Source: a virus. From it: a stretch of 26,973 nucleotides of DNA. The stretch is from positions 1 through 26,973 of the IMG/VR virus record IMGVR_UViG_3300049825_000626; one strand, given 5' to 3'. Positions 6,743-23,765 of the stretch are shown piece after piece (position 1 is the first letter of the stretch; each line of letters opens with the position of its first letter). Below the pieces are notes generated by a model, which saw only the letters and a list, made by a program, of their open reading frames with translations, ran no database searches and was not told the origin of the DNA. The position numbers and the translations under genes are program-made.

Positions 6743-6939
6743 TTTGCCCTCGGCTTGGCTAGAGCGTCAGAGAGCTTGTTCTGCAGTTCGGCGATCGCTT
6801 TGTGGGCACACCGTGGGCACCAGAGGTCACAGCCCGGCTCCGGCAGCTCGGCGACATAAAAGTGCCCGCACGTGTTGCATCGCGACTCTCTCACTCGGAG
6901 AGACCGCTGAATCGTTGCCTCGGTTGAGGGCGTGCTCAT
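6739..6939 (-). CDS. Small zinc-ribbon protein
   Basis: A 66-aa protein with two CxxC pairs (CNTC near residue 21, CPRC near 41), a four-cysteine zinc ribbon, then a short helix rich in Ala and Lys. ATG 6939 is preferred over a longer start at 6951 because it overlaps the TerL stop by exactly 4 nt, the spacing used throughout this operon. Role unknown; it may bind nucleic acid or a protein partner during packaging. Confidence 0.65.
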   Translation of the reverse strand: MSTPSTEATIQRSLRVRESRCNTCGHFYVAELPEPGCDLWCPRCAHKAIAELQNKLSDALAKPRAK

Positions 6940-8594: not shown

Positions 8595-9076
8595 GCTGCG
8601 GTCGGCCCTTCGTCCAGGGCGAAGTCGTCGATCGGCACCGAGTCGACCGCATCGGTGAGCGTGACCGCGAGCTCGCCGCGCATTGCTGCGTCCTGCGCCT
8701 GCTTCGCCTCGACAAGCTGCTCATGCAGCGCGTTCTCCTCGGGTGTAAGCGCCGGCTGCTCAGGGCCAACCCACTTGAACGACAAGCTCCCCGGGTCGAA
8801 CGTCGCGCGGATGACTGCGAGGCGCGTGCTCTCGTACATCAGGTCCAGGCGATCGGTGGAGCTTGGGTACTTCTTCCACCGGAGCTTGTGGATCGGCCAG
8901 CCCGCTTGGATGGCCGCGTACATCAGCTGCGAACGGAGCGCGTCGAGCTTCTGCTCGAAGTCGAGCACAGCCTCGGGCTTCGTTCCGACGCTGCAGCCAG
9001 GGCAGCGCTCGGGGGGCTTGCCCTCGACCGTTGCCGTGTACCCGCAGCGCCTGCAGCTGATGTCAGTCGGCCTCAC
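8591..9076 (-). CDS. Zinc-ribbon protein upstream of TerL
   Basis: A 161-aa protein. GTG 9076 is chosen because GTGA overlaps the upstream stop by 4 nt; an ATG at 9112 would extend it by 12 Arg-rich residues into the neighbour. The N-terminus carries a zinc ribbon (CRRC and CPGC), followed by a helical middle with many aromatic and charged residues and an acidic C-terminal tail (DDFALDEGPTAA). It lies immediately before TerL, so a packaging-related DNA-binding role is possible but unproven. Confidence 0.6.
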   Translation of the reverse strand: MRPTDISCRRCGYTATVEGKPPERCPGCSVGTKPEAVLDFEQKLDALRSQLMYAAIQAGWPIHKLRWKKYPSSTDRLDLMYESTRLAVIRATFDPGSLSFKWVGPEQPALTPEENALHEQLVEAKQAQDAAMRGELAVTLTDAVDSVPIDDFALDEGPTAA

Positions 9077-9276
9077 GCGTCGACCTCGACCTTGCCGAGC
9101 TTGGCGAACCACTCGTCAATCTCGGCCTGCGTGGCGAACGGCGGCCCCTTACACGCGCGACACCCGGTGCACCGGACAAACGTCTGCCGCCGCATGAGCC
9201 GCTCGAACAGCGTGGGGCTGCGGCACGCGCACTGCTGCTTATGGCAGTACCAGCACACGCTCGCCAGGTAGCTCAC
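9073..9276 (-). CDS. Cysteine-rich small protein
   Basis: A 67-aa protein with seven cysteines in a CWYC...CAC...CTGCRAC arrangement, consistent with one or two bound zinc ions, then a short helical tail. The GTG start at 9276 overlaps the upstream stop by 4 nt. It resembles the many short treble-clef or zinc-ribbon proteins of phage operons. No specific function is recognised. Confidence 0.6.
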   Translation of the reverse strand: MSYLASVCWYCHKQQCACRSPTLFERLMRRQTFVRCTGCRACKGPPFATQAEIDEWFAKLGKVEVDA

Positions 9277-9617
9277 TGCTTCGTGCCCCCGTCGCGCAGC
9301 ACCTTGTCGATCTCGGCCTTGACCGAGCCGGGGTGCTCGCGCGCTACCTCGGCGATCGCCTCGGCTTCCTCAGCCGCTTGGCGCTCAGCCTCACGCCGGT
9401 CGCGCAGGCGCTGTTGCTCCTCCTCGGCGAGCGCACCCTGCGCGCACGCTGCGATCTTCAGCGCGGTCACGGTGGTCGGGCTCGCGGCAGCAGAGGTCAG
9501 CGCTTGCTGTGCCGGCGTGCAGCCGGGCAGCATCGCCAGCGCTGTCAGCGCGCCGATCGCCACTGCGACCACGATGACGATGACGACCAACCAGTTTGCG
9601 GCTCGCACTGGTGTCAT
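9273..9617 (-). CDS. Spanin-like membrane/coiled-coil protein, copy 1
   Basis: A 114-aa protein with a strongly hydrophobic N-terminus (NWLVVIVIVVAVAIGALTAL) that ends in LPGC, so it could be either a signal anchor or a lipoprotein signal. Next comes the segment ALKIAACAQGALAEEEQ, an Arg/Glu/Ala coiled coil (about 70-100) and a conserved tail EIDKVLRDGG. The same segment and tail recur in the gene at 10244-10513, so the two are paralogues. Membrane anchor plus periplasmic coiled coil is the layout of an inner-membrane spanin. It overlaps both neighbours by 4 nt. The function is inferred from layout. Confidence 0.6.
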   Translation of the reverse strand: MTPVRAANWLVVIVIVVAVAIGALTALAMLPGCTPAQQALTSAAASPTTVTALKIAACAQGALAEEEQQRLRDRREAERQAAEEAEAIAEVAREHPGSVKAEIDKVLRDGGTKQ

Positions 9618-9865
9618 GACCTTGCGATCGCTGCGTTGGCCCAGAACACGGCCGTTTCGAGATGCGTGATTGCGACGCTCAGCTCACGCGACGCCGGACA
9701 GACCGCGTGCAGATGCGTCGCCAGGTCTTTCGCGTGGCTGCGGATGTCCGTGTACAGCTCCGACTGGCCTGGCTTGGGCGCGTGGTAGCGGAAGTTGTTC
9801 TCAAGCTGCGCGGTGATAGCCGGTGTGATGTTGTTCAGTCGGTTCGGGTCGGAGTAGTCGGTCAC
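9614..9865 (-). CDS. acb2: Acb2-like cyclic-nucleotide sponge (anti-CBASS)
   Basis: An 83-aa protein. Its C-terminal half reads CPASRELSVAITHLETAVFW followed directly by ANAAIARS. This matches the hallmark of the phage Acb2/Tad1-hairpin family (Cys-Pro-x-Ser-Arg-Glu, then L-E-x-A-x-x-WANA-x-IAR). A preceding helix has the family's R/F-x-x-H-x-P and Y-x-x-IR pattern (FRYHAP, YTDIR). Acb2 proteins are small hexameric sponges that bind cyclic di- and trinucleotides and so block CBASS and, in some relatives, Thoeris immunity. The GTG start at 9865 has a good SD (GGGAG) and overlaps the tiny lipoprotein gene by 4 nt. The assignment is from remembered family motifs, not from a search. The binding activity of this copy is inferred. 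Confidence 0.82.
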   Translation of the reverse strand: MTDYSDPNRLNNITPAITAQLENNFRYHAPKPGQSELYTDIRSHAKDLATHLHAVCPASRELSVAITHLETAVFWANAAIARS

Positions 9866-9881
9866 TTGGTCTCTCCCGAGT
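9859..9881 (-). repeat. 23-bp ribosome-binding-site repeat, copy 1
   Basis: Identical to 10507-10529. On the minus strand it carries the end of one frame (SGETK then stop), the GGGAGAG Shine-Dalgarno and the GTGACCG start of the next gene. It marks one edge of the duplicated cassette. Confidence 0.8.
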
Positions 9882-10002
9882 CGGAGTCGTCCGACTCAAC
9901 AGGTGGGTGCGGGCGCAGCGGGCTCGTGTCGAGCTTGCAGCTTGAGCAGCCAGGCAGCAGCCACGGCACGAGCACGATCACAGCGAGCACACACGTCGTC
10001 AA
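9862..10002 (-). CDS. Tiny Pro-rich lipoprotein, o-spanin-like
   Basis: A 46-aa frame between the 82-aa gene and the Acb2-like gene. It encodes a hydrophobic signal with a lipobox (VPWLLPGC, Cys at 19), then a short Pro- and acid-rich mature part (PLRPHPPVESDDSDSGETK). Small Pro-rich lipoproteins are typical outer-membrane spanins (Rz1-like), and spanin-like membrane proteins flank it. The start is uncertain: TTG 10002 overlaps the upstream stop by 4 nt, while CTG 10017 would add a basic n-region (RRKG), and internal GTGs exist. Stop TGA is at 9862-9864. Confidence 0.55.
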   Translation of the reverse strand: MTTCVLAVIVLVPWLLPGCSSCKLDTSPLRPHPPVESDDSDSGETK

Positions 10003-10247
10003 TCCTTTTCGCCGCAGCGCTTCTCATCGCAGGGTCCCTTGTACGCAGCGGTGATGATCGCGACCGCCCTGCGCTGCCACTCGGGCGGCAGCATGTCGAG
10101 CGTCACGAGACACGTGGACACTGACCTTGCGAAGCCCTCGGCTTCCTTGCGGAGATCGGCCTCGTCGCCCGTCACCGCGCCGTGCCCCCATCGCGCCCGA
10201 AGCGCGCGCGATGGGATGCCGAGTGCTGCGGCCTCGTCGTCCGTCAC
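9999..10247 (-). CDS. Hypothetical 82-aa protein with HTH-like N-terminus
   Basis: GTG start at 10247 (GTGA overlap). The first 20 residues (DDEAAALGIPSRALRARW) share protein and DNA sequence with the winged-helix segment of the gene at 13620-14090 (AAALGIPARAIRRAL), as if a recognition-helix fragment had been copied. The rest is a helical segment (SVSTCLVTLDMLPPEWQRR) with a Cys-containing polar tail (CDEKRCGEKD). No function is known; it lies inside the spanin-like and Acb2 cassette. Confidence 0.5.
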   Translation of the reverse strand: MTDDEAAALGIPSRALRARWGHGAVTGDEADLRKEAEGFARSVSTCLVTLDMLPPEWQRRAVAIITAAYKGPCDEKRCGEKD

Positions 10248-10513
10248 TGCTTCGCGCCCCCATCGCGCAGCACCTTCTCGATCTCGGTCCTGACCGAATC
10301 GCTCGGCTCGCTGGCTGCACGGCGGATGCGCTCGGCTTCGAGCTCGGAGGCAGCCTCGACCAACCTACTGGCCAGTGCGCGCGCCTGCTCCTGCTCGGCC
10401 AATACGCCTTGCACGCACGCGGCGATCTTCATGCCCGTGAGCGTGGACAGTCCTGCGATCGCACCAGCAAACAGGGCACCGCACACGTCGCGTAGGAACT
10501 TGGCCTCGGTCAC
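10244..10513 (-). CDS. Spanin-like membrane/coiled-coil protein, copy 2
   Basis: An 89-aa paralogue of 9273-9617. The hydrophobic segment CGALFAGAIAGLSTLTGM is followed by KIAACVQGVLAEQEQ, an Ala/Glu/Arg coiled coil and the tail EIEKVLRDGGAKQ. The GTG start at 10513 has the SD GGGAGAG identical to that of the Acb2-like gene. It appears to be the first gene of the late minus-strand operon. The layout fits an inner-membrane spanin pairing with the tiny lipoprotein at 9862-10002. At the DNA level its last ~55 bp closely match the end of copy 1. Confidence 0.55.
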   Translation of the reverse strand: MTEAKFLRDVCGALFAGAIAGLSTLTGMKIAACVQGVLAEQEQARALASRLVEAASELEAERIRRAASEPSDSVRTEIEKVLRDGGAKQ

Positions 10514-11770: not shown

Positions 11771-12322
11771 TCACTCGGGCCTGGGGTGCTCGTTCTCCCT
11801 GTGCTGCCGCACCGCTGCCAGTAGTTCATCAGCTGAGATGATCGTGCCTACCCGCTGCAGCCGGCGCTCAAGCTCATCGGCCGCAGCTAGCACCGGCTCG
11901 ACGGAAGCGCGCAGCCCCGCGTTCTCCTTTTTGAGGGAGCGGTTCTCGTTCAGGACCACATTCTGATCGTTTGAGAACGCATCTGCAAGACGGTTCACCG
12001 CTGCGCGCAGCTCCGCGTTCTCAGCTTCGAGCTTCTGCATGTTGGCGAACAGGTTCCGGTAGGCGAGCCCGGCTGTCTCGACCTCCGCTTCGAGCCGCTC
12101 GACCTGGCCGCGCTCTTTACCTGCGGCCTTCGCTGTTTCCTCCACCTGACGCGTCAATGTTGCCCGCTCCAGTTCCAGCATCTCGATAGTGCCCATGCGA
12201 AGCCGCGACTCCGCACGCATGCGCTCCGCCTCGGCGGCGAGCTGCTCCACTGGCACGCTCAGCGGTGGCTGATGCAGCAGCATCCACTCATCCTCGAGAC
12301 TCTCGCGCTCGTCCTCGCTCAT
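11771..12322 (-). CDS. Coiled-coil hypothetical protein
   Basis: A 183-aa protein starting at ATG 12322 (MSEDERESLEDEW) behind the SD AGGAG, 7 nt upstream. The longer frame upstream is a shadow of the preceding gene. Almost the whole chain is an uninterrupted amphipathic helix with heptad spacing (LEAENAELRAAVNRLADAF, ERLEAEVETAG), so it should form a long coiled coil. No enzymatic motif is visible. It is the last gene of a block that begins at a start-associated sequence (12331-12340). Confidence 0.65.
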   Translation of the reverse strand: MSEDERESLEDEWMLLHQPPLSVPVEQLAAEAERMRAESRLRMGTIEMLELERATLTRQVEETAKAAGKERGQVERLEAEVETAGLAYRNLFANMQKLEAENAELRAAVNRLADAFSNDQNVVLNENRSLKKENAGLRASVEPVLAAADELERRLQRVGTIISADELLAAVRQHRENEHPRPE

Positions 12323-12330
12323 GACTCGCT

Positions 12331-12340
12331 CCTGGTTGCT
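12331..12340 (-). repeat. Start-associated sequence, AGCAACCAGG form
   Basis: Diverged copy of the AATCAACCAGG element that includes the Shine-Dalgarno of the coiled-coil gene at 12322. Confidence 0.5.
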
Positions 12341-12351
12341 AGGCCTGTGGC

Positions 12352-12582
12352 TCACGCTGAGGCCTTGGTGTGCGATGCCAGCGACCGCACGGCGTTGTCT
12401 TTGATGTGTTTCGCACAGCGGGTATAGCCCGCCTTGGCGCGCTTGCCGCAGGCGATGCACAAGCCCTCGGCGCGTCGCGACGCTCGCAGCTTGCGCCGGA
12501 CTTCTGCCCGGCGCTCTCGGCACGCTTCGCACCGGTCGGTGGTGTCGATGCAGGCCTCGCAGCGGTAGCCTTCCTGCGGCAT
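12352..12582 (-). CDS. Small multi-CxxC zinc-binding protein
   Basis: A 76-aa protein starting at ATG 12582, which shares one base with the upstream stop (TGATG). It has CEAC, CEAC and CIAC pairs plus a later single Cys (YTRCAKH), separated by an Arg/Glu-rich helix. The basic middle and the paired CxxC motifs suggest zinc-dependent nucleic-acid binding. It ends 30 bp before the coiled-coil gene. Confidence 0.6.
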   Translation of the reverse strand: MPQEGYRCEACIDTTDRCEACRERRAEVRRKLRASRRAEGLCIACGKRAKAGYTRCAKHIKDNAVRSLASHTKASA

Positions 12583-12791
12583 CAGACGGTCTCCAGTCGT
12601 TTGGCGCAGCTCGGCTCGACGCGGAGGCGCAGCGCGCCGTTGGCAGGGCATGAGCCGGCGTTCCTGGCCGCCGCGTGGCTGGCGCGTAGGTGCTCGGGCA
12701 TCCACTCGACCACGACGGTCTCCGACTTCGAGCCGCTCCACTCGCACAGCTCTCCGAATGCCTGACCGCACTCGCAGCGTACGGCGGTCAT
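12582..12791 (-). CDS. Small Cys-containing hypothetical protein
   Basis: A 69-aa protein beginning MTAVRCECGQAFGELC at ATG 12791, overlapping the upstream stop by 4 nt. CxC plus distal Cys and His residues (CEWS, HLRASH, CPAN) resemble a degenerate C2H2 or C4 zinc site. Nothing further is recognised. Confidence 0.55.
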   Translation of the reverse strand: MTAVRCECGQAFGELCEWSGSKSETVVVEWMPEHLRASHAAARNAGSCPANGALRLRVEPSCAKRLETV

Positions 12792-13039
12792 AACGCCACC
12801 TCGATCACCGCGCCGCACACAGGTTCATTGTCGTCGGTAACGTCGGTCCAACACGCGAGCTTCACATACGCGTGCATGTGGTTTCCAACTCCCAGGCTGC
12901 CAGTGTGGATAGGGCCAACGAGTTTGGTCACCTCGTACACCTCGCCGTCGTCACCAGAGACGTAGTCGCCGACGTCCGGAAGCCCGTTTCCGCGTTCGTG
13001 CACCGTCGCTTTGATCGTCGTCATGGTCGTGTTAGGCAT
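12788..13039 (-). CDS. Hypothetical beta-rich protein
   Basis: An 83-aa protein with ATG 13039 behind AGGAG (9 nt spacing), in a start-associated sequence variant. The sequence looks like a small beta-barrel (GDYVSGDDGEVYEVTKLVG, HAYVKLACWTDVTDD), of the kind seen in SH3-like phage proteins. No family was identified. It overlaps the next gene by 4 nt. Confidence 0.6.
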   Translation of the reverse strand: MPNTTMTTIKATVHERGNGLPDVGDYVSGDDGEVYEVTKLVGPIHTGSLGVGNHMHAYVKLACWTDVTDDNEPVCGAVIEVAL

Positions 13040-13050
13040 GGGTTGTTTCT

Positions 13051-13060
13051 CCTAGTTGGT
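13051..13060 (-). repeat. Start-associated sequence, ACCAACTAGG form
   Basis: Diverged element providing the AGGAG Shine-Dalgarno for the gene at 13039. Confidence 0.45.
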
Positions 13061-13085
13061 TACCGCGTCAACAAGAGAGACTATG

Positions 13086-13128
13086 AGGCGGCCCCATTGA
13101 AGAGTCAAGTGGGCCGCCTGTCTTTTTT
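13086..13128 (+). terminator. Strong intrinsic terminator, plus orientation
   Basis: A 9-bp stem (AGGCGGCCC 13086-13094, GGGCCGCCT 13111-13119) with an inner TTGA/TCAA stem is followed by GTCTTTTTT on the plus strand. This is a canonical Rho-independent signal for plus-strand transcripts, although all flanking genes are on the minus strand. In the minus direction the stem is followed only by a pyrimidine stretch. Confidence 0.7.
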
Positions 13129-13472
13129 CAGTTCGTGGGTCTGTAGCTGACGCCGCTATATCCCTTGAGCGGCTGGCAGTGCTTGCATGTCTTGACGACG
13201 TGCCCCGGCGCAGCGCGGTCGTGCACGACGAACGGCGTCTGATCCACGGGCGGGTCGCACGGTTTCCAGGCGAGCTCGGCGGCCATCCATCGGCCGTCGG
13301 GCATGCGCTGCGGCTGCGTCACTGTTTTGACCGCGTTTTCCCACGGGTCGGGCGCTACCTCGACGCGCGTAAATAGCCCGCCAATCCAGCGGAATATCGC
13401 GCGGGTTATCGCGAGGATTCCCCACGAGACGAAGAACCCTAATACGTACACAGATACGTTCTGCTCGTTCAC
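13128..13472 (-). CDS. Membrane-anchored hypothetical protein
   Basis: A 114-aa protein with GTG 13472 behind AGGAG in a start-associated sequence. It has one N-terminal membrane helix (VYVLGFFVSWGILAITRAIF, about 8-27), then a soluble domain with Trp/Pro residues and one CKHC pair near the C-terminus. The membrane anchor plus CxxC could be a metal or redox site on the cytoplasmic or periplasmic face. Function unknown. Confidence 0.6.
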   Translation of the reverse strand: MNEQNVSVYVLGFFVSWGILAITRAIFRWIGGLFTRVEVAPDPWENAVKTVTQPQRMPDGRWMAAELAWKPCDPPVDQTPFVVHDRAAPGHVVKTCKHCQPLKGYSGVSYRPTN

Positions 13473-13481
13473 GCAAATGCT

Positions 13482-13490
13482 CCTGGTTGG
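13482..13490 (-). repeat. Start-associated sequence, CCAACCAGG form
   Basis: Element that includes the AGGAG Shine-Dalgarno of the membrane protein gene at 13472. Confidence 0.5.
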
Positions 13491-13507
13491 TGGTCGCTCA
13501 CGAACCG

Positions 13508-13544
13508 GGGAAGGGAGCCCACCCCTCTCGGTGGCCCCCTTCCC
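13508..13544. terminator. GC-rich bulged hairpin
   Basis: GGGAAGGG (13508-13515) pairs with 13537-13544 and CCACC (13519-13523) with 13530-13534. It is stable but lacks a T-run. Confidence 0.4.
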
Positions 13545-13570
13545 ATTGCCGCCCTACCCCGCTCTAAGAT

Positions 13571-13605
13571 GATCCCCCGGGCGAGCGCAGCGGACGAGGG
13601 GGATC
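13571..13605 (-). terminator. Inverted repeat after the winged-helix gene
   Basis: GATCCCCC (13571-13578) and GGGGGATC (13598-13605) form a perfect 8-bp stem with a 19-nt loop, located 15 bp beyond the stop of the 13620-14090 gene and followed by ATCTT on the minus strand. It probably ends or attenuates that transcript. Confidence 0.45.
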
Positions 13606-13619
13606 GGAAACGCCTTATT

Positions 13620-14090
13620 TCAAGACGTTTCTGGGAAAGTCATCGCCCACCGCGCGAGTCGCTCTGACTCGCGGGAAGTGAACGGCCGGTGTCTGTCTTC
13701 GAGCGTCTGCTTGTTGGTCGGGTAGCGCTCGCGGCCCGCGAACAAGAGCATGTCCTGCGCCGCTTCGCCGCCTGCGATCTGCCCGCGCTTCTGCCCTGCT
13801 GAGCAGGGGCGCGCCGCCGTCAGCTGCCGTTGCTGGACGCCTACCAGCGGGATCGTGGTCACGGACTCCCAGAGGTGCTCACGGCCCCAGTACACGTTTG
13901 GCGTGTTGGTCAGCCGCGTGCGTCTGTAGTCGCACGCGGCTGTGACGGCCTTGGCTTCCAGCGCTCGCCGAATCGCGCGCGCTGGGATGCCGAGTGCTGC
14001 GGCGATCTGTGACGCGGTCAGCGGCGTCTCGCTCTTGCGCAGCAGCCTGATTACGCGGTGAGTGGTCGGTGTCAGCGAATCGTCAGTCAC
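13620..14090 (-). CDS. Winged-helix DNA-binding protein
   Basis: A 156-aa protein. GTG 14090 is chosen because AGGAG lies 6 nt upstream inside a start-associated sequence; the longer frame upstream is a shadow of the preceding zinc-ribbon frame. Residues about 8-50 form an HTH with a clear recognition segment (LTASQIAAALGIPARAIRRA), then a probable wing (RLTNTPNVYWG). The remainder is Gln/Arg-rich and unassigned. This is a likely transcription or replication regulator. The recognition segment is echoed in the 82-aa protein at 9999-10247. Confidence 0.65.
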   Translation of the reverse strand: MTDDSLTPTTHRVIRLLRKSETPLTASQIAAALGIPARAIRRALEAKAVTAACDYRRTRLTNTPNVYWGREHLWESVTTIPLVGVQQRQLTAARPCSAGQKRGQIAGGEAAQDMLLFAGRERYPTNKQTLEDRHRPFTSRESERLARWAMTFPETS

Positions 14091-14277
14091 ATCTATCTCC
14101 TGGTTGATTGGCTTCGAACAGCCGCCGATGGCGGCACGTGCGGCATAGCCACTGCGTGCCGTCATCGGCGAGCGTGGTTACTGCGTGGCACCGCTCGCAG
14201 CGTCCTCGTTCTCCGAGTCCTGGCCCGCGCCACCGTTGAGGTAAGCGGCCAGCTGGTTCTTCGCTGGCCGCCCTGGT
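14083..14277 (-). CDS. -1 frame zinc-ribbon extension of 14178-14405
   Basis: The -1 frame from 14277 to the stop at 14083 encodes 64 codons, including a complete zinc ribbon: CERC, a 13-residue loop, then CRTC and a basic RHRR. There is no ATG, GTG or TTG in this frame between the heptamer and the first CxxC; the nearest GTG (14393) would start inside the first codons of the other gene. It is best read as the C-terminus of a 107-aa frameshift product: 43 residues of the 14178-14405 protein plus this extension. Its last codons include the start-associated sequence of the next gene. Confidence 0.6.
   Translation of the reverse strand, partial: TRAASEEPAGRLPQRWRGPGLGERGRCERCHAVTTLADDGTQWLCRTCRHRRLFEANQPGDRCD
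14099..14109 (-). repeat. Start-associated sequence AATCAACCAGG
   Basis: Consensus copy preceding the winged-helix gene at 14090; it lies within the end of the zinc-ribbon extension frame. Confidence 0.6.
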
Positions 14278-14405
14278 TTTCCCGATGGTTGCGCCATCCC
14301 CATCAGCTCGGCCATGTCCTGCATGCGCTGTGCTGCTTCGGCGCGCCCTGCGGCAAGCTCCGACTTCAACTCGGCGTGCGTCATCGTTGCCCACGTCTTG
14401 CTCAT
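14178..14405 (-). CDS. Small basic protein with KPGRPAK motif; frameshift donor
   Basis: A 75-aa protein from ATG 14405 (ATGA overlap). A helical, Ala/Glu/Met-rich N-terminal part (about 8-37) is followed by SGKPGRPAKNQ, which contains an AT-hook-like GRP core, and an acidic tail (DSENEDAASGATQ). The sequence GGGAAAA lies in frame at codons 42-43 and is followed by a 9-bp stem. A fraction of ribosomes may therefore switch to -1 and replace the acidic tail with a zinc ribbon. Possible small DNA-binding or regulatory protein made in two forms. Confidence 0.6.
   Translation of the reverse strand: MSKTWATMTHAELKSELAAGRAEAAQRMQDMAELMGMAQPSGKPGRPAKNQLAAYLNGGAGQDSENEDAASGATQ
14245..14283 (-). promoter_or_regulatory. 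Predicted -1 ribosomal frameshift signal
   Basis: The minus-strand heptamer G GGA AAA (14283-14277) is in the zero frame of the 14405 gene and fits X XXY YYZ. It is followed by a 5-nt spacer (CCAGG, 14276-14272) and a perfect 9-bp stem (GCGGCCAGC 14271-14263 with GCTGGCCGC 14253-14245) with a 9-nt loop. Heptamer type, spacing and stem strength are as in known phage frameshift sites. Confidence 0.65.
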
Positions 14406-14527
14406 GACAACATCCGCCAGCGAATGAAGAAGTAGGGCGCGACGACAATGATCGCGGGCGGAAACAGCGCGCAGAGCATCCCGAGCCCCACACCGACCGC
14501 GACGTTGCACACGTCGACGAAACTCAC
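14402..14527 (-). CDS. Tiny membrane protein (41 aa)
   Basis: Starts at GTG 14527 (GTGA overlap) and ends at TGA 14402, overlapping the next ATG by 4 nt. Nearly the whole chain is hydrophobic (VAVGVGLGMLCALF, AIIVVAPYFF) with a basic RWR near the end, consistent with one or two short membrane helices. Unknown role. Confidence 0.5.
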   Translation of the reverse strand: MSFVDVCNVAVGVGLGMLCALFPPAIIVVAPYFFIRWRMLS

Positions 14528-14598
14528 GGCGTCACCGCCGCGTAGAACGCGCACGTCAGCGCGCATGCCGCCATCAGCGGCAACATAAACTTAGTCAT
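14524..14598 (-). CDS. Tiny hydrophobic peptide (24 aa)
   Basis: Starts at ATG 14598 with SD GGGAG 7 nt upstream, supplied by a start-associated sequence, and ends in GTGA overlap with the next tiny gene. The sequence is hydrophobic (MLPLMAACALTCAFYAAV). The strong start signals and 4-nt overlap argue for translation; it may be a leader peptide that couples the next genes. Confidence 0.45.
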   Translation of the reverse strand: MTKFMLPLMAACALTCAFYAAVTP

Positions 14599-14608
14599 CT
14601 AGCGTCTC

Positions 14609-14619
14609 CCTGGTTGATT
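14609..14619 (-). repeat. Start-associated sequence AATCAACCAGG
   Basis: Consensus copy preceding the 24-aa peptide gene at 14598. Confidence 0.6.
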
Positions 14620-14655
14620 TGCGTCCTGTCCATCTGCTGTCCACTAAACGAAAAC

Positions 14656-14704
14656 GTGGGCTGCGTAGCGACCGAAGATTCCCGATCCCGACCACGCAAC
14701 CCAC
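14656..14704 (-). terminator. Hairpin with T-rich tail after 14715-14918
   Basis: GTGGG-c-TGCGT (14656-14666) pairs with ACGCA-a-CCCAC (14694-14704) over ten base pairs. On the minus strand it is followed by GTTTTCGTTTAG, a plausible intrinsic terminator for the upstream gene. Confidence 0.5.
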
Positions 14705-14714
14705 AGTTGCTGTT

Positions 14715-14918
14715 TTACCCGATTTCCGCGCGAGTTAAGCCAAGCATCCGAAGCGCTTCGTCGCGCACGGTGTATTCCAGGAATCCGAACCGGTCCCACG
14801 GCGAGCGGCCCTCCGCACGGTCCGAGCGGTAGTACAGAACCGCGTTCGCTTTCTCCTCGTCGGAGAGCTTCCGGACCAACTTCGCTGCGACACTCTGAAT
14901 CTTGCTTGCGTAGGTCAT
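14715..14918 (-). CDS. Small hypothetical helical protein
   Basis: A 67-aa protein from ATG 14918 behind GGGGGG (4-5 nt spacing). The sequence is helical and charged (VAAKLVRKLSDEEKANAV, DEALRMLGLTRAEIG). It is an isolated unit: two operator-like decamers lie upstream and a terminator downstream. This suggests separate regulation by the phage repressor, as for a lysogeny or early accessory gene. Confidence 0.6.
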   Translation of the reverse strand: MTYASKIQSVAAKLVRKLSDEEKANAVLYYRSDRAEGRSPWDRFGFLEYTVRDEALRMLGLTRAEIG

Positions 14919-14940
14919 CGTTCCCCCCTGGTCTACATAT

Positions 14941-14950
14941 GACAAACGTC
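14941..14950. promoter_or_regulatory. Operator-like decamer GACAAACGTC
   Basis: Family member 23 bp upstream of the 14918 start. On the minus strand it is part of TTGACGTTTGTC, as in the control-region sites where TTGAC forms a -35-like hexamer. Confidence 0.5.
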
Positions 14951-14990
14951 AACGTCAAGGCACGAGGGCCGACATAGCAGCCCTCGCGTC

Positions 14991-15000
14991 GACATTTGTC
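14991..15000. promoter_or_regulatory. Operator-like decamer GACATTTGTC
   Basis: Second family member, 50 bp from the previous one, adjacent to the endolysin stop (14999). The minus strand reads CTGACAAATGTC. Confidence 0.45.
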
Positions 15001-15472
15001 AGCCAGGCCAACCTAGCGGCCAGCGATAGCCCAACACACGGCCGGTGTCGTAGGGCGCAATACACACGCTGTTGCGTTGATTTCCGCCCAGCACGTCAAT
15101 GTTATCGTCGGCGCGCGCGCGGACGATAAACCCGACGTGGGCTGCGTTCTTGTTCGCGTGGTCGCTGCGATCGAGCACGACGATACAGCCGAAGTGCGGC
15201 CGTTCGAGCGCCGAGCCCCATTTGAGCCAGCTCCGAGCTGCAGCGGAGCGGGTAGACCGCAGCCCTGCTTGCTCCATGCACGCGCACGCGAACGAACTGC
15301 ACCATGGAATCTCATCCGAGGTCGCTTGCAGCGTCGTGTGTCGGTGGAACGCCACGATCATCGGGTGCGCCTTCGGTCCGGACACCTCGAGGATTCCCAT
15401 GCGCTCGTACGCCTCGGCGATCTGCAGCCATGGCAACGTGTGCAGGGGCGCGTCTGTTTTTTCAGTCGGCAT
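14999..15472 (-). CDS. NlpC/P60-type endolysin (TIGR02594-like)
   Basis: A 157-aa peptidoglycan amidase or endopeptidase. Residues WCSSF with Cys58, AHVGF with His112 and GGNQ with Asn131 give the expected Cys-His-Asn triad. The upstream pattern MGILEVSGPKAHPMIVAF and the following ARSWLKWG match the TIGR02594 group of phage lysins. No signal peptide is present, so export would depend on a holin. ATG 15472 is preceded by GGAG; a longer frame upstream is a shadow. It overlaps the membrane-protein gene upstream by 11 nt, which suggests a lysis cassette. Confidence 0.8.
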   Translation of the reverse strand: MPTEKTDAPLHTLPWLQIAEAYERMGILEVSGPKAHPMIVAFHRHTTLQATSDEIPWCSSFACACMEQAGLRSTRSAAARSWLKWGSALERPHFGCIVVLDRSDHANKNAAHVGFIVRARADDNIDVLGGNQRNSVCIAPYDTGRVLGYRWPLGWPG

Positions 15473-15848
15473 AGTCACTCTCCAGTTGGTTGAGCCCATC
15501 GAACTCGATGTGGTCGCCAACGCCGAGCATCGGAAGCATCCGAGCGGGCGCGGCGATGATGCGTGTCGGCGCGCCGCCAAGCGCGTGCTCGACGATCAGC
15601 ACCATGTTTGCGACGCGCGCGAGCGCCCACAGGGCGATTGCGCCGGCTGCGACCACCACGATTACGCCAAGCAGCGCGAGCCCGAGCGCGAGGCGTCCGC
15701 CGTTGTACAGCAGCATCCCCGCGACGGCCCACAGCTGCGAACTGTTGCCGGGCGCCCGCGGCGTGGCGAACGCGTCGCCACCGCCGTGGATGTGCAGGTC
15801 ACGCCCCACGTTGATTTGCACGGGCCCATGCGAGACCCAACCTGGCAT
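15462..15848 (-). CDS. Two-helix membrane protein next to endolysin
   Basis: A 128-aa protein from ATG 15848 (SD AAGGGGG, 8 nt). GTG 15878 would add ten residues and overlap the upstream stop by 4 nt. After an unusual N-terminus (INVGRDLHIHGGGD) come two hydrophobic helices (about 45-65 and 66-95: LALLGVIVVVAAGAIALWAL), then a soluble tail. Position directly before the endolysin suggests a holin or holin partner, though the long soluble tail is atypical. Confidence 0.55.
   Translation of the reverse strand: MPGWVSHGPVQINVGRDLHIHGGGDAFATPRAPGNSSQLWAVAGMLLYNGGRLALGLALLGVIVVVAAGAIALWALARVANMVLIVEHALGGAPTRIIAAPARMLPMLGVGDHIEFDGLNQLESDYAD
15481..15494 (-). repeat. Start-associated sequence, CTCAACCAACTGGA form
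   Basis: Diverged copy carrying the GGAG Shine-Dalgarno of the endolysin gene. Confidence 0.45.
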
Positions 15849-15874
15849 GTGGTGGTCCCCCTTCGTGAGTTTGG

Positions 15875-16069
15875 TCACCACTCGATCTTCCGCCCGTTGT
15901 GCAGAGTGACCTCGTAGTGCTCGGTCGCGGCTTCGGCTGCAGCCTTCAGCTGCGCTTTCTTGCGCGGCCCGGGCTTCTTTTTCGCGCCGGCCGCCTCTTT
16001 GCGTTGCCGGTCGCGCCGTTCGTACGGCGTTTCCTTTGCGCGGCTCCAGATTGCGCCGAGGAAGCCCAT
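15875..16069 (-). CDS. Small basic hypothetical protein
   Basis: A 64-aa, Lys/Arg-rich protein from ATG 16069, sharing one base with the methyltransferase stop. It starts with a hydrophobic MGFLGAIW, then a long basic helix (KKKPGPRKKAQLKAAAEAAT) and a short beta-like tail (YEVTLHNGRKIEW). Basic composition suggests nucleic-acid binding. No family recognised. Confidence 0.55.
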   Translation of the reverse strand: MGFLGAIWSRAKETPYERRDRQRKEAAGAKKKPGPRKKAQLKAAAEAATEHYEVTLHNGRKIEW

Positions 16070-16704
16070 CAGGCCCACCACTCGACTTCCACGCCGCATG
16101 CAGCGACGCGCCCGTTGTGGGGCTTGCCTTCGGGGCGGCGCACGACGTCGATCGTGCACATGGCAGTCTGTCCACCTGTGCGGCTGCCGCTGTACTTCGG
16201 TCGTGACGAGTGAATCACGAGCCGCTTGAGGTACGCGGTCGACCACAGCCCCTCGCGGCGGTCCTTGCCTTCGAGCGTCGTCAGCGGACAGTGACACACG
16301 ACCCGCGGCGCAAATTTGAGCGCGTGCAACACGTGTGCTTCGGTCTGGCCTTTTTCAAATGGAGGGTTGAGCAGTGCTAAGTCGACGCCCGGCCAATCCT
16401 CGAACGCAGTAAAGTCAGCGCTTATGACTTCGACGCCTTCGGCGCGTGTCCACTTGGAGGCGACCCAATCGGCGTTGTCTGGGTCGATGTCGATCGCCGT
16501 AACGCGGTGTCCCGCCGCCACGAGCGGACTCACCAACGCGCCGCGCCCGGCGCTTGGCTCGAGCACGTGCAGCCGGTCATTCGCCCAGACGCGGGTTGCC
16601 CAGTTTGCGATTCGCTCCGCGAGACAGCAGTCGAGGTACCACTGCGACTTGCTCGGGTCGCATTTGTCCGGGTTCTCCGGATTCACGAGTTGAAATTCAG
16701 ACAT
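16069..16704 (-). CDS. SAM-dependent DNA methyltransferase (N6-adenine type)
   Basis: A 211-aa enzyme. Motif I LEPSAGRG is at residues 48-55, the acidic motif II in AIDIDPD (70-76) and the catalytic motif IV NPPF at 113-116, the (D/N)PPY/F signature of amino-methyltransferases acting on adenine or cytosine. A specificity domain is not obvious, as in small orphan phage methyltransferases. ATG 16704 is preceded by a consensus start-associated sequence with SD AGGGA. It could protect phage DNA from host restriction. Target sequence unknown. Confidence 0.8.
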   Translation of the reverse strand: MSEFQLVNPENPDKCDPSKSQWYLDCCLAERIANWATRVWANDRLHVLEPSAGRGALVSPLVAAGHRVTAIDIDPDNADWVASKWTRAEGVEVISADFTAFEDWPGVDLALLNPPFEKGQTEAHVLHALKFAPRVVCHCPLTTLEGKDRREGLWSTAYLKRLVIHSSRPKYSGSRTGGQTAMCTIDVVRRPEGKPHNGRVAACGVEVEWWA

Positions 16705-16873
16705 TGTTTTTCCCTGGTTGATTGGTCGCGTTGTCGTTGGCTCGTTCGAGCCGTTGCAGTGCGTTTGCCATGAGCGCGCTGAACTCACGTGCGGCGTTGA
16801 GCACTCCGGTTCCGAACGCTCGAAGGCCCACGCGGTCAAGCTCGTCCGCGAGCTCGTGGAGCGCGTTGATCAC
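16697..16873 (-). CDS. Small helical hypothetical protein
   Basis: A 58-aa protein from GTG 16873, which overlaps the RusA-like stop by 4 nt. ATG 16960 would lengthen it to 87 aa but would overlap the RusA-like gene by 91 nt. It is helical and charged (LHELADELDRVGLRAFG, FSALMANALQRLERAND). The last codons include the start-associated sequence of the methyltransferase. Confidence 0.45.
   Translation of the reverse strand: MINALHELADELDRVGLRAFGTGVLNAAREFSALMANALQRLERANDNATNQPGKNNV
16713..16723 (-). repeat. Start-associated sequence AATCAACCAGG
   Basis: Consensus copy preceding the methyltransferase gene at 16704. Confidence 0.6.
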
Positions 16874-17496
16874 TCGGACGAATGCGGTGCGCAGTGCAGC
16901 ACAATCTGAATGCCGTGAAGCCGCGGGTTCGCTGCACACTTCGCTTGTCGATAGATCCATGTCACGCCCTGTTGCTTGAGCCAGCCGTCTGCCTGTCCGA
17001 GGGTTCTCTCTACGTGCTCGCGCCACTCGTGCGGCCATCGCACATAGGCGCAAACAGCGTCGCGCACGGGCTTGAAGCACGCGCTTAGGTTGTCGTCGTC
17101 CATCTCGGTCGCCGGATTGCCTGCGCGGCTTGAGAGCCTCACGTACTCGATGCGCTTCAGTCCGGGCACACCGTTGGGCATGTAGCGCTCTATCCGTACC
17201 CCTACGCTGTCGCGTAGCTTCTCGTAATCGTTTCGCCGCGCGTAGAGCACCTTCCGCACCTGCGTTGCGCTCATCGACGGCGGCGGCACGAACTCGCGCG
17301 GCTGCGACAGGAACTCGGGCAGCTGAATCAGGTAGGAGTTGGTCCGCGGGTTGTAGCTGAAGTACTGCGAGACCAAGCACTTGACGGGCTGCGCCTTCTT
17401 CGGCTTAGCGATCGCGGGAGGCAGAGGCTTGCCCGCGATTCGGTCGCGGATTCGCTGCGCGTCCTCGGGGCTCAGCGCGTTGATGAGGCGGGTCAT
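16870..17496 (-). CDS. RusA-like Holliday-junction resolvase
   Basis: A 208-aa protein from ATG 17496 (ATGA overlap). The acidic MDDDNLSACFKPVRDAVCA at residues 132-150 matches the D-x-DN...K...DA core that binds catalytic metal in the RusA family. The region around 100-125 carries the preceding strand. It is longer than E. coli RusA (120 aa) because of an N-terminal extension of about 75 residues rich in Pro and Lys. RusA-type enzymes cut four-way junctions made during phage replication. The helicase and initiator lie upstream in the same operon. Confidence 0.7.
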   Translation of the reverse strand: MTRLINALSPEDAQRIRDRIAGKPLPPAIAKPKKAQPVKCLVSQYFSYNPRTNSYLIQLPEFLSQPREFVPPPSMSATQVRKVLYARRNDYEKLRDSVGVRIERYMPNGVPGLKRIEYVRLSSRAGNPATEMDDDNLSACFKPVRDAVCAYVRWPHEWREHVERTLGQADGWLKQQGVTWIYRQAKCAANPRLHGIQIVLHCAPHSSE

Positions 17497-17627
17497 CGGT
17501 TTACCTCGCGCGAGTCCGTGTGTTGCTTGGCCTTGCACTTCGGGCACTGCCAGAGCGTGTATTCCCAGCCCGCAGCCGTAGTTCTGCCCAGGCGTTCCAT
17601 CGGCACGCGGCACGTTTCGCAGGTCAT
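17493..17627 (-). CDS. 44-aa zinc-ribbon protein
   Basis: ATG 17627 behind GGGGG (5 nt). Two CxxC pairs (MTCETC, QCPKCKAK) separated by a beta-like stretch (GWEYTLWQ) form a textbook zinc ribbon. It overlaps both neighbours by 4 nt. It sits between the helicase block and the RusA-like gene; its role is unknown. Confidence 0.65.
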   Translation of the reverse strand: MTCETCRVPMERLGRTTAAGWEYTLWQCPKCKAKQHTDSREVNR

Positions 17628-17881
17628 CGGGTCCCCCTGCACTTGCATGGCAGCACCGACCATGTCTCAGCGCCGGTACTCGTACGGTCCACAAGCTGCT
17701 GCAGCCGCGGTTGGTCGCAGCGAACGCAGTCGACTTGCCCGCACAGGCTGTGCTCGCGCGTGTCGACGTCGCCGATCTCGACGTGCGGCGAGCGCAGCAC
17801 CGTTGTGCGTGGCAGCGCCGGGCGCAACGTCTTCGGCCGCGCGTCGTGGAGCACCTCGTGCCACTGTTCGAGCGCGCTCAT
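17624..17881 (-). CDS. Small Cys-rich hypothetical protein
   Basis: An 85-aa protein from ATG 17881 (ATGA overlap with the helicase stop). The C-terminal half has CGQVDCVRC and CKC, a likely zinc site; the N-terminus is polar with few features. Coupled to the helicase and the 44-aa zinc ribbon. Confidence 0.55.
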   Translation of the reverse strand: MSALEQWHEVLHDARPKTLRPALPRTTVLRSPHVEIGDVDTREHSLCGQVDCVRCDQPRLQQLVDRTSTGAETWSVLPCKCRGTR

Positions 17882-19158
17882 GTCCAGCCCAACTCGCTGC
17901 TAAAAGTGGTCGTCGGTGCGTCGAAGCGCATGCGCACGATGCCGGTCTGCCCCTTGCGGTTCTTCAAGAACACAGCCTCGGCTGCGTCCTTGTCGGCGTT
18001 CTGGTCGTGCACGCACTCGCGGTGCAGGCCAATGATGCGGTCGGCGTCACGCTCGATCTGCCCGCTCTGCGCGATGTCGGACATCACGGGGCGCTTGTCG
18101 CCGCGCTTGTCGCTGTCGCGGTTGGACTGCGAGAGCACGACGAACGGGATATCCAGCTCGCGGGACAGGAGCTTGAGCGCCGTCGCGATGTCGCCGATCT
18201 CTTCGAAGCGCGACTGGTAGCGCTTCCGCATGCGAATCAGCTGCAGGTAGTCCACCACGACCATGTCGAGTTGCGACTTGCGGCGCATCGCTCGGCACGC
18301 GTTGGCGAGGTCCTCGAGCACGAGCGCCGAGCAGTCGAAGATGTAGAGCGGGATGTCCGACAGCAGCCCAGCACGGTTGATCACATGCGTCGCGGTGTCG
18401 GCGCTGAGCTGGCGCGCGAACGCCTGCACCGGAACCCGTGCATCCTGGCTGAGCACGCTCACAGCCACGTCCAACGCGCTCATCTCGTAGCTGAACACCG
18501 CCGTGTGCAGCCCGGCGACCGCGTTGCTGCGTGCGACCTGCAGCGCAAACGACGTCTTGCCCATGCCGGGGCGCGCCAGGATGATCGCGAGCTCGCCGGA
18601 CGCGAACCCGCGCCAAGGCAGCGCCTTGTCGACAGGACCGATCCCGCTCGGGGCCACGATGCGTGGGGTTACCGGGCGGGCCGCCATCAGCTCGTCGATC
18701 GCCGGCTGGAGCGCCTCCCCCAGCGTCCGATGCGCCAGCTTCTGCCGCCTGCCTCCCAGGGCGGCTGTGAGCCTCTCTGAGGCGCGCTGCAAAAACTCGC
18801 CTGGGTCGGCCGACGCCGTTGCGTCCAGGCCCCAGGCGCCAACGTCGAGGCAAGCGCGGCCCAGGGTGCGAGCTTCGCCGAGCAGACGCAGCCGCTCGAG
18901 CGCGTCGCTGGCGAGGAAGGCTGCCACGAGGGTGTCACCCCGAGCAGCGCTCGCGAGCGTCGCCATGTCGAAGCTCTGCCCCGCCTGCCGGTGCAGACGC
19001 GTGACCGCCTCGAACACGCGTCGGGCGCCCTCCGCGTAGAAGTCCTCGGGCAGTAGCTCGTCGACGAGTAGCTGCCTGTGCTCGTCCATGTGCAGCGCGA
19101 GCGCGAGCACCTTGGTCTCGAGTCTGTGGTCGTGTGGCATTCCCGTTCGTTCGGTCAT
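17878..19158 (-). CDS. dnaB: DnaB-like replicative helicase
   Basis: A 426-aa protein. The N-terminal DnaB domain (about 10-130) is followed by a linker and the RecA-fold motor. Walker A is ARPGMGKT at 195-202, Walker B DMVVVDYLQLI at 298-308, and the following SQSNRDSDKRGDKRP with DIAQSGQIERDADRI corresponds to the DnaB H4/arginine-finger region. It is the phage's hexameric 5'-3' helicase. ATG 19158 lies behind a consensus start-associated sequence with SD AGGGA. The initiator gene lies immediately upstream, as in self-sufficient replication modules. Confidence 0.9.
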   Translation of the reverse strand: MTERTGMPHDHRLETKVLALALHMDEHRQLLVDELLPEDFYAEGARRVFEAVTRLHRQAGQSFDMATLASAARGDTLVAAFLASDALERLRLLGEARTLGRACLDVGAWGLDATASADPGEFLQRASERLTAALGGRRQKLAHRTLGEALQPAIDELMAARPVTPRIVAPSGIGPVDKALPWRGFASGELAIILARPGMGKTSFALQVARSNAVAGLHTAVFSYEMSALDVAVSVLSQDARVPVQAFARQLSADTATHVINRAGLLSDIPLYIFDCSALVLEDLANACRAMRRKSQLDMVVVDYLQLIRMRKRYQSRFEEIGDIATALKLLSRELDIPFVVLSQSNRDSDKRGDKRPVMSDIAQSGQIERDADRIIGLHRECVHDQNADKDAAEAVFLKNRKGQTGIVRMRFDAPTTTFSSELGWT

Positions 19159-19168
19159 TGGATTTTCC

Positions 19169-19179
19169 CTGGTTGATTG
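19169..19179 (-). repeat. Start-associated sequence AATCAACCAGG
   Basis: Consensus copy preceding the helicase gene at 19158; it fills the short gap to the initiator stop at 19181. Confidence 0.6.
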
Positions 19180-19180
19180 G

Positions 19181-20017
19181 TCAGAACTTCATGATCTGGT
19201 GAGCGAGCGGAGTCGGCGCAGCTGCTGGCTGCTGGACCGCTCGGGCGATCTGCTTGACTGGACCTGCGAGGTACTTCTGCCAACTGCGCTGCAGGTGCGG
19301 CGCGTCGACGCGTGACGGGTTCTCGCGACACCACACGTCGGCGTTCACGGCCTTGGCGACCCGCAGCCGCTCCGCCTCTGGCTTGCTGCCGATGTGCCCG
19401 TACTCGGCCGCGAACGATCCTAGGGGCGGGATGTCGAACTGGCTGCGACCGAGCAGCCCCGCCACGAAGTTGAACCCACGGAGCTGGGTGTCGAGAGCAG
19501 TCGGGGCCGCCGTGCCCGGAGAAGAAGCGGCAGCTTCTTCTCTTATCTGGTCGGGTCGGGTCGGGGGATGCGGACTCCGCAGTTTGTCCGCGCGGACAAC
19601 CGGAGCTAAGTGGTTAGAAATGATTGAGTTGTGCTCGCCAAAATCCTGCCCGTGACTTGGCGGAGTTTTGGCGGGATTCTGGCGGGATTCTGGCGGAGTT
19701 TTGGCGCGACTTTGGCGCTTCCTGTCCGCCTCCGACTCCCTTTTGGCGATCATCTCGGCAGCCGAGGGTTGGTATTTGAGCCAGTCGTGGAACTGGTAGC
19801 CCCCCTCTGCGGCGACCCAAAGTCCGCACTCGATGAGCGCTTCGGCGTCTCGTTTTCTGCCTCCAAGGGCGACGACCATCTTGCTCGGCACAAACCCGTC
19901 AGTGAGTTGCGCGGCGCACCAAGAGCCCGCGACCACCCAAAGCCCACGCGACGCCAGTGAGACGCGAATGGCTTTTGGGTGCCCGTGGAATCGGTCGTCG
20001 ACCTTGAACCAGGTCAT
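19181..20017 (-). CDS. Replication initiator/replisome organiser
   Basis: A 278-aa protein whose N-terminus (about 1-95) is the DNA-binding type domain of phage replisome organisers: WFKVDDRFHGHPK, SRGLWVVAGSWCA, FVPSKMVVALGG, YQFHDWLKYQPSA. A Lys/Arg/Gln/Pro linker (about 96-125) is encoded by an 11-bp repeat array, the probable origin. The C-terminal part (about 160-278) is helical and may contact the helicase, as with lambda O and P. It lies directly before the DnaB-like gene and one base after the stop of the preceding gene. Confidence 0.75.
   Translation of the reverse strand: MTWFKVDDRFHGHPKAIRVSLASRGLWVVAGSWCAAQLTDGFVPSKMVVALGGRKRDAEALIECGLWVAAEGGYQFHDWLKYQPSAAEMIAKRESEADRKRQSRAKTPPESRQNPAKTPPSHGQDFGEHNSIISNHLAPVVRADKLRSPHPPTRPDQIREEAAASSPGTAAPTALDTQLRGFNFVAGLLGRSQFDIPPLGSFAAEYGHIGSKPEAERLRVAKAVNADVWCRENPSRVDAPHLQRSWQKYLAGPVKQIARAVQQPAAAPTPLAHQIMKF
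19606..19650. other. AT-richer stretch beside the iterons
   Basis: The stretch from GCTAAGTGGTTAGAAATGAT onward is clearly richer in A+T than its surroundings and borders the iterons on one side. It could be the DNA-unwinding element of the predicted origin. Confidence 0.4.
19658..19723. repeat. Six 11-bp iterons, predicted replication origin
   Basis: TGGCG recurs at 19658, 19669, 19680, 19691, 19702 and 19713, exactly every 11 bp, with arms GAGTTT, GGATTC, GGATTC, GAGTTT, CGACTT, CTTCCT. Eleven is not a multiple of three, so the repeat is not a product of protein repetition. It lies inside the initiator gene, as lambda ori lies in gene O. Confidence 0.7.
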
Positions 20018-22328: not shown

Positions 22329-22791
22329 TTACGACCAGCGATTCGTGACGAAGTTCTGGTCACACATCGAGAAGCCCGGGGCGGACGATTGCTGGACCTG
22401 GAAGCTCAGCTGCACGGCTGCTGGGTACGGACAGATTTGGTGCGTAGACACGATGAAGTACGCGCACCGGATCGCCTACGAGCTGATCAAGGGTCCGATT
22501 CCCACGGGGATGGAAGTGCTGCACGCGTGCGACAACCCGCCATGCGCGAACCCAGCACATCTTCGAGTCGGCACGCACGCGGACAACATGCGGGACATGG
22601 CCGTGCGTGGTCGCCAAGGCAAGACGCCGCGCGGGCCATGCCCGCGCCGGAAGCTTACGCCTGAGCAAGTTCGCGCGATTCGCGCGAACGCGCAAAACGA
22701 AACGCTAACCGCCCAGGCGCAGCGCTACGTCGTGGCGTTCAACACCATCTGGGGCGTTGCCCACCGACTCACTTACAAGGACGTGGTGTGA
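22321..22791 (+). CDS. HNH endonuclease
   Basis: A 156-aa protein from ATG 22321. The HNH core reads AHRIAYELIKGPIPTG (about 48-63) then VLHACDNPPCANPAHLRVGT (66-85) and NMRDM, with the catalytic His near 68, Asn77 and His80, and CWTW near 24-27. This is the phage HNH_3-type homing or nicking endonuclease. A C-terminal basic helix (PCPRRKLTPEQVRAIRANA) is a typical DNA-binding extension. It is embedded between early genes, as homing endonucleases often are. Confidence 0.8.
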   Translation: MGDYDQRFVTKFWSHIEKPGADDCWTWKLSCTAAGYGQIWCVDTMKYAHRIAYELIKGPIPTGMEVLHACDNPPCANPAHLRVGTHADNMRDMAVRGRQGKTPRGPCPRRKLTPEQVRAIRANAQNETLTAQAQRYVVAFNTIWGVAHRLTYKDVV

Positions 22792-23765
22792 TGGCATTCA
22801 GCACAGACGCTGATGGCTTTGTGGTTGGGTATGAGTTTGGCGCGCGTTCATACCCTGAGATGATCCACCCGGCATTGTCACAGACTCTGGCCAAGGTTGT
22901 TCGACGTTGCCCGGAAGATGCCTGGCGAATCAAACAGCAAACCGAGCGTGTTGAGAGGGAGGACTCCGACGCGATGGACGGTGGGAACATTTTGGACGCG
23001 CTGCTCACCGCGACCACGCCGTGGAACGAGACCGACTGCCCGGTTCAGAAGTGGACGGCCGAAACAAAGAAGCCGACCGACCCGATCGACTACAGCGACT
23101 GGAACGGGCTGCGCATCCTCAGCTGCGAGACACTGCAGACCAAAGCGGCGAAGGAGTGTGCGGCTGACGCGCGCCGCAACGGGCTGGTCCCAGTGCTCTC
23201 ACACAAGTTCGTCAAAGAGGTCGAGCGCGCGAACGACATGCTTGTGCGGATGGAGCTCGCTGGATTTGACAGATCCCAATACCACTACCAATGCGCGTTG
23301 GCGTGGGTTGAAACGGCAGCCAACAACACACGGGTCCAGTGCTGCGGCAGGCTCGACTTTCTCAAGAAAGACTGGACAGAGGTCGTGGATCTCAAGCGCG
23401 TTGAGAGCCTGGACCAACGCTCGCTTGAAGCGGCTACGGATCGATACGGCTGGGCCTTACAGGCGGCAGTTTATTCCCGCGCCGTGGTGCTGCTGATCGC
23501 TGCGGGACTCGCAGACATACCGCGCACCGTTGACTGGCCGCCGTCGTGGCGCTGGCTGTTCGCGCGCACCGCTCCCGTGGTCGCGTGCACGTTGCGCCCT
23601 GCTGATGCGCGGTTGCTGCAGGCCGGTGAAGCCGCTTGGAACCGCGCGGTGAACGAATGGGCCGAGGGCCTCGCAACCGGGCTGTGGCGCGGCCACGAGT
23701 CCGACCACACGCCACTCGACGCTACCTCATGGGCACTGGATCAAATGGAGGCTGACCTTGTCTGA
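22791..23765 (+). CDS. RecE-like PD-(D/E)XK exonuclease
   Basis: A 324-aa protein (ATG 22791; GTG 22788 also possible). The nuclease core lies at about 184-230: GRLDFL (Asp189), VVDLK (Asp200, Lys202) and GWALQAAVYS, the order expected for PDDEXK exonucleases of the RecE/phage exodeoxyribonuclease VIII group. Such enzymes resect dsDNA ends to give ssDNA for recombination. The RecA-fold ATPase follows with an 8-nt overlap, so together they form a recombination module. Confidence 0.75.
   Translation: MAFSTDADGFVVGYEFGARSYPEMIHPALSQTLAKVVRRCPEDAWRIKQQTERVEREDSDAMDGGNILDALLTATTPWNETDCPVQKWTAETKKPTDPIDYSDWNGLRILSCETLQTKAAKECAADARRNGLVPVLSHKFVKEVERANDMLVRMELAGFDRSQYHYQCALAWVETAANNTRVQCCGRLDFLKKDWTEVVDLKRVESLDQRSLEAATDRYGWALQAAVYSRAVVLLIAAGLADIPRTVDWPPSWRWLFARTAPVVACTLRPADARLLQAGEAAWNRAVNEWAEGLATGLWRGHESDHTPLDATSWALDQMEADLV

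Follow-up and report, generated by a model that had tools for sequence, protein, structure and literature searches.

Gene layout and the tag at early-gene starts

The window, by which the whole stretch of DNA analysed here is meant, is a virus record of 26,973 bases (IMGVR_UViG_3300049825_000626) in which 51 genes were called with a simple purpose-built gene finder. The leftward late block includes the large terminase (6936-8594), the leftward early block includes a replication initiation protein (19181-20017) as well as a DnaB-like helicase (17878-19158, assigned with PHROGs), and an exonuclease VIII-like gene (22788-23765) belongs to a rightward block. The genes that open the late block (9073-10513) look duplicated: gene 9614-9865 resembles 10244-10513 in leader and start (gactcgggagagaccaaGTGACCGA in part), and gene 9073-9276 resembles 9999-10247 in the same two parts. 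Searches with the helicase and the initiator retrieved three relatives, i.e., G001 (45,267 bases), G002 (41,753 bases) and C25 (30,434 bases), the last being contig 25 of a proteobacterial MAG, a fragment of 30 kb. No additional close relative came from a helicase search that used the four-row alignment.

A tag, AAYCAACCAGG, precedes early-gene starts in the window and in each of the three relatives. Four exact minus-strand copies of the form AATCAACCAGG, each before a start, are present in the window. These are found at 19168-19178, before the helicase gene, which is also tagged in all three relatives; at 16713-16723, before gene 16069-16704, which is methyltransferase-like (a weak assignment, with a Pfam match under the cut-off) and whose orthologues in G002 and C25 are tagged as well; at 14609-14619, before a 24-codon ORF starting at 14598; and at 14099-14109, before gene 13620-14090, which has a GTG start. 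Variants lie on the same strand at 13482-13492 (CACCAACCAGG, before gene 13128-13472), 13051-13061 (AACCAACTAGG, before gene 12788-13039) and, in a weak form, 12331-12341 (TAGCAACCAGG, before gene 11771-12322). The first-pass annotation had counted at least eight tagged minus-strand starts, with four copies identical over 11 bp. Four exact copies and three variants lie where it had located them, and the eighth, at start 15472 (gene 14999-15472), carries a shorter form, AACCAACTGGA (15481-15491, minus strand), which was read directly from the sequence and is absent from the 2-mismatch scan; the same leader is kept in G002. At up to two mismatches the window holds 18 matches against 3.5 expected, a number reached by none of 100 shuffles.

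The motif search was extended to the four phages together and gave 30 sites with no more than one mismatch, 5-9 of them per genome against Markov means of 0.4-0.7. Twenty-five of them, including a doubtful one (C25 30150), end 5-13 nt before a start that opens at least 20 codons; the remaining five are three hairpin copies, described below, and two sites inside late genes. The stretch conserved over the 25 sites is C-AAYCAACCAGG-RR, including the Shine-Dalgarno AGG, and its pre-start spelling is AACCAACCAGG in the relatives and mostly AATCAACCAGG in the window. The late operon had been described as lacking the tag, and this holds for the 17 late genes of the window and for all 97 late genes of the four phages, versus 19 tagged among 138 other called genes (Fisher p 3e-5), a count that leaves out short tagged ORFs missed by the gene finder. 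The proposal that the tag lies where a block of coupled genes ends was only partly right, since starts 16704 and 15472 overlap the preceding gene and, in the relatives, four tagged genes share a 4-nt overlap with the gene upstream. In the 5.4-Mb MAG, which may not be the genome of the host, five of the eight exact copies of AAYCAACCAGG are in the phage contig C25.

The tag as a probable translation signal

Of the two roles that the first-pass annotation had offered, a promoter-adjacent leader and a translation signal, the results favour the second. Over the 25 sites no column from positions -40 to -3 exceeds 0.5 bits, and there is no conservation upstream that resembles a promoter or the ESAS repeat discussed below; therefore, a shared promoter is absent, and a promoter or transcription-start element was rejected as the identity of the tag. 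Extended pairing with the anti-Shine-Dalgarno was also discarded, because AAYCAAC is not on the side of AGG where it could lengthen the pairing with the 16S tail.

Tagged leaders are more unpaired than the others (0.63, n = 19, versus 0.42, n = 215; p 5e-7), as would be expected if the tag were merely a good ribosome site, i.e., an unstructured A/C-rich stretch with a Shine-Dalgarno that boosts early translation, that has no partner and to which the hairpin is unrelated. This explanation also agrees with the presence of AACCAACCAGGAGA before ATG in many unrelated phages (at least 120 stretches) and of YCAACCAGGAG before several starts in the unrelated phage record G016 (L339-L341). Nevertheless, we regard it as unlikely. 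Over the 25 sites AAYCAAC is nearly fixed, whereas the letters that follow AGG and would make Shine-Dalgarno pairing stronger vary; AACCAACC occurs in none of 916 leaders from 92 other viral loci, where shorter pieces show mild enrichment at best; and nine of 100 single-leader records hold two exact copies and none holds more, versus five to seven here. A ribosome site without a partner would also leave the invariant loop of the hairpin unexplained.

A recurrent start leader as a general habit of phages was considered and rejected, given that a scan of 126 loci revealed a comparable leader in only five of the 124 viral contigs among them; the other two loci, Anaya and Pixie, served as positive controls and were both recovered. 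Recurrent 11-nt start leaders were seen in L062, L295 and L080 (CAGGAAGGAGC six times, AAGGAGGCCAA five times and CACGACAGGAG four times), with no opposite exact copy within their loci. In a 7-kb viral contig (L186:1584-2601) the resemblance among three leaders extends to the spacer (MACCAACCAGGAGACTAGAYCATG) and seems to mark a similar start tag, and in G016 (L339-L341) YCAACCAGGAGA-like leaders precede several starts on both strands.

A conserved hairpin with the opposite copy

The first-pass annotation, although supported in part, overlooked the most informative copy, AACCAACCAGG at 25544-25554, which is the sole exact plus-strand copy in the window and lies away from gene starts. It falls within a 71-nt stretch (25515-25585) whose minus strand forms a hairpin (fold z -3.1) that is conserved in G001 and G002 and could be an anti-tag RNA. 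The loop of this hairpin is an invariant 14-nt sequence, UCCUGGUUGGUUGA (25542-25555, minus strand), which is the complement of the tag. In the three phages the opposite copy sits in the hairpin and is the one exact plus-strand copy that does not precede a start; G001 has an additional plus-strand copy before a rightward gene. That the opposite copy is part of a conserved hairpin points to an RNA partner of the tag.

The 71-nt stretch is 82-92% identical among the three phages and its 40-nt flanks are 20-57% identical; none of the 14 loop columns varies, versus 14 of the 57 other hairpin positions. Read leftward, it forms a single long hairpin of lower fold energy than the rightward read in all three phages, and 78 of 81 cells pair, versus 33-47% in slid controls. 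Stem pairs 4-68, 6-66 and 27-45 change on both sides in a compensatory manner, although this covariation comes from only three hairpin sequences and is equalled by 35 of 500 shuffles. Ten cells form G-U pairs leftward and none rightward, in a comparison biased toward the leftward strand because it was made on the leftward fold; these pairs favour the leftward strand as that of the hairpin. All three hairpins are on this strand, as are most early genes.

Read rightward, the stretch displays the tag itself in the loop; in both the window and G002 it follows the rightward genes, and in the window a weak terminator-like site lies beyond it. Such an arrangement could be accounted for by a phage RNA-binding protein that recognises the tag (cf. 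T4 RegA), with the rightward hairpin as a decoy or a self-control site. We consider this improbable, given that on the rightward strand 13 of 81 cells are unpaired and the fold is the weaker one in every phage, that four tags of the window read AATC where the hairpin retains AACC, and that no candidate protein was identified.

In the window and G002 the hairpin starts approx. 56 nt beyond the last leftward genes, whose homologues end the late run of G001; in G001 itself it precedes a 66-codon leftward gene near the opposite end of that run. Since the hairpin is conserved, its flanks have diverged and its place relative to the genes differs between G001 and the other two phages, it forms a unit of its own. 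A scan of the window revealed no convincing promoter beside it; a leftward candidate noticed by eye in G001 and G002 (TTG, 18 nt, TACAA) was likewise unconvincing. Just past the hairpin, a weak terminator-like stem of the rightward block (ATTGCC-TGT-GGCAAT with a T-rich tail, 25609-25623, plus strand) was observed, with 0.6 expected by chance.

The location of the hairpin at operon borders, and a plus-strand ATG that opens 20-48 codons through it, would also fit some other role, such as an operon-end structure, late antitermination, an attachment site or a short peptide, the likeness of the loop to the tag being due to chance. We hold this to be very improbable. A place that changes among phages is unsuited to antitermination, the G001 hairpin is approx. 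30 kb from the integrase-like gene, no Rfam family matches the hairpin, and the invariant part is the loop rather than the stem. The short peptide, starting at 25536, was rejected: it lacks a Shine-Dalgarno, its lengths are 48, 20 and 31 codons, and the changes in it mostly alter amino acids.

A covariance model of the hairpin detected a single copy per genome in the three phages; the other sources, out of 79 in total, yielded no convincing match, only a weak one in Anaya (21.5 bits, E 0.31). Among viral contigs the hairpin was found only in the two known relatives, and it was not found in phages and plasmids. A search of 299 genomes from the MAG's phylum gave no more than core matches with one or two mismatches, in 41 genomes and at a chance-like level; 399 genomes of its order gave none, in a search without a positive control that carries little weight. 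C25 has tags, and the hairpin was not found in its 30-kb fragment; likewise, no similar hairpin was obtained when its plus-strand copy (30150) was folded. In this contig a perfect 12-bp hairpin stem (C25 30186-30215, L110:15076-15105) was observed just before a tagged rightward gene.

Predicted loop-tag pairing and comparison with known systems

Since the hairpin came to light as an opposite copy of the tag, the complementarity of loop and tag is in part circular. When the loop was paired with 235 leaders, 49 reached -14 kcal/mol or lower; 300 shuffled loops gave 11.1 such leaders on average and 38 at most. No leader of the late operon is among the 23 that reach -18 or lower. The short AACCAACTGGA leader has a predicted duplex of -18.1 kcal/mol. 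Opening costs are 7.5-8.9 for the hairpin and 0.6-6.4 for the target, with which the listed duplexes of -21 to -24 remain favourable net. The T at tag position 3 in the window requires a G-U pair with the loop. No instance of loop and tag changing together is visible in the available sequences; most tag changes seen by eye (C to T, A to G) are wobble-compatible and keep the pairing, but this was discarded as evidence since a transition bias explains it equally.

What was found is a predicted structured RNA with a loop complementary to the ribosome sites of its targets, as is expected of a phage trans-acting antisense RNA. With moderate confidence, our best reading is that the phage would encode such an RNA, covering the ribosome sites of approx. 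eight early genes. The target would be C-AAYCAACCAGG-RR at the starts, largely single-stranded and including the Shine-Dalgarno AGG, and the partner would be the 71-nt hairpin RNA, running leftward from 25585 to 25515 and displaying the complementary loop UUCCUGGUUGGUUG. The loop would pair over some 12-14 nt with the ribosome sites of the helicase, the methyltransferase-like gene and small unknown genes, and the pairing would jointly block their translation, probably once late transcription takes over. The sequence-level part of this model is solid; we infer from it that the hairpin is transcribed, pairs in the cell, represses by pairing and acts late, this timing being uncertain because the G001 hairpin is not beside the last late genes. 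What is new here, a conserved hairpin with a loop complementary to the tag, suggests a small RNA that might turn off many early genes together; according to the model, one short RNA could silence the whole early-gene set.

The first-pass annotation had likened the tag to the start-associated sequences (SAS) of cluster K mycobacteriophages. As described (PMC3203893), the SAS (consensus GGGATAGGAGCCC) is an asymmetric repeat including the Shine-Dalgarno, typically 3-7 bp before starts that are mostly ATG; it is restricted to non-structural genes, rare in the host and mostly in one orientation, about half of its sites have an upstream inverted repeat (ESAS), and one opposite copy is recorded in four K1 phages (the 2011 paper, PMC3203893). 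In relation to this account the likeness is apt: the tag also is short, asymmetric, multi-copy and mostly in one orientation, includes the Shine-Dalgarno, lies a few nt before starts, mostly ATG, of non-structural genes (0/97 late versus 19/138) and has one opposite copy. Unlike the SAS as described, its consensus is C-AAYCAACCAGG-RR, it has no ESAS-like upstream repeat, coupled genes can carry it, and the phages are unrelated. The tag is a real element of the SAS kind, outside the SAS family.

In 36 kb of Anaya the SAS occurs 16 times rightward, with two mismatches allowed, and once in the opposite orientation; this opposite copy is in a gene-free gap which, read in the direction of the operon, shows CCUCCUAUCCC in a hairpin loop. 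This gap was aligned in 20 cluster K records (Anaya and 19 hand-picked from 60 listed of 162 matches), where the loop is identical in nine, C-rich but changed in five, different in four and lost in two, so that the exact loop is absent from 11. In 14 of these 20 records, leaving out the six without a recognisable loop, 96.8% of the hairpin cells pair and 12 cells are compensatory on both sides, versus 3.4 (0 of 500 shuffles). Among the nine exact-loop records the anti-SAS strand folds better in seven and the complement in two (Anaya and Murucutumbu). K1 phages have a covarying hairpin with an anti-SAS loop, an arrangement similar to that of the window lineage and independent of it. In Adephagia it occupies the gap between genes 92 and 93, in which late transcription is reported to begin (PMC11373665). 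In 21 kb of Pixie 13 SAS cores and zero anti-SAS were found, even with G-U allowed, and its hairpin loop differs. Since other cluster K phages (Pixie) keep the SAS without the anti-SAS loop, the arrangement may not be general. Besides the anti-SAS hairpin, the cluster K pre-late gap (L233:34679-35072; homologues L320-L338 and L342) contains several structured blocks that are conserved; these include an almost invariant CTTTTAGACT, a candidate -10 element, as well as a GGCCCCGG...GGGGCCG hairpin; no Rfam family reached its gathering score there. In openly licensed literature on the mycobacteriophage SAS no proposal of an anti-SAS RNA was found.

Tentatively, tag and anti-tag RNA may be a two-part switch from early to late translation that evolved separately in the window lineage and in cluster K1. 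If true, this switch would explain the purpose of the SAS, at least in K1, and the hairpin makes SAS function cheaply testable in the cultured phage Adephagia.

Phage antisense RNAs that repress phage messages have been described, such as c4 of P1 and P7, sar of P22 and OOP of lambda (PMC12197685). In common with them, the RNA predicted here would pair with phage messages and repress them; unlike them, each having one main message as described, a single loop would act on a site common to approx. eight early genes. T4 RegA, by contrast, is a protein whose sites, according to the available account, are loosely defined, A+U-rich and unstructured and include the AUG (PMC3014915). The predicted joint shut-off of many early messages at ribosome sites is shared with RegA as described; the difference is that here the site is fixed and A/C-rich, ends 5-13 nt before the start and has an RNA complement.
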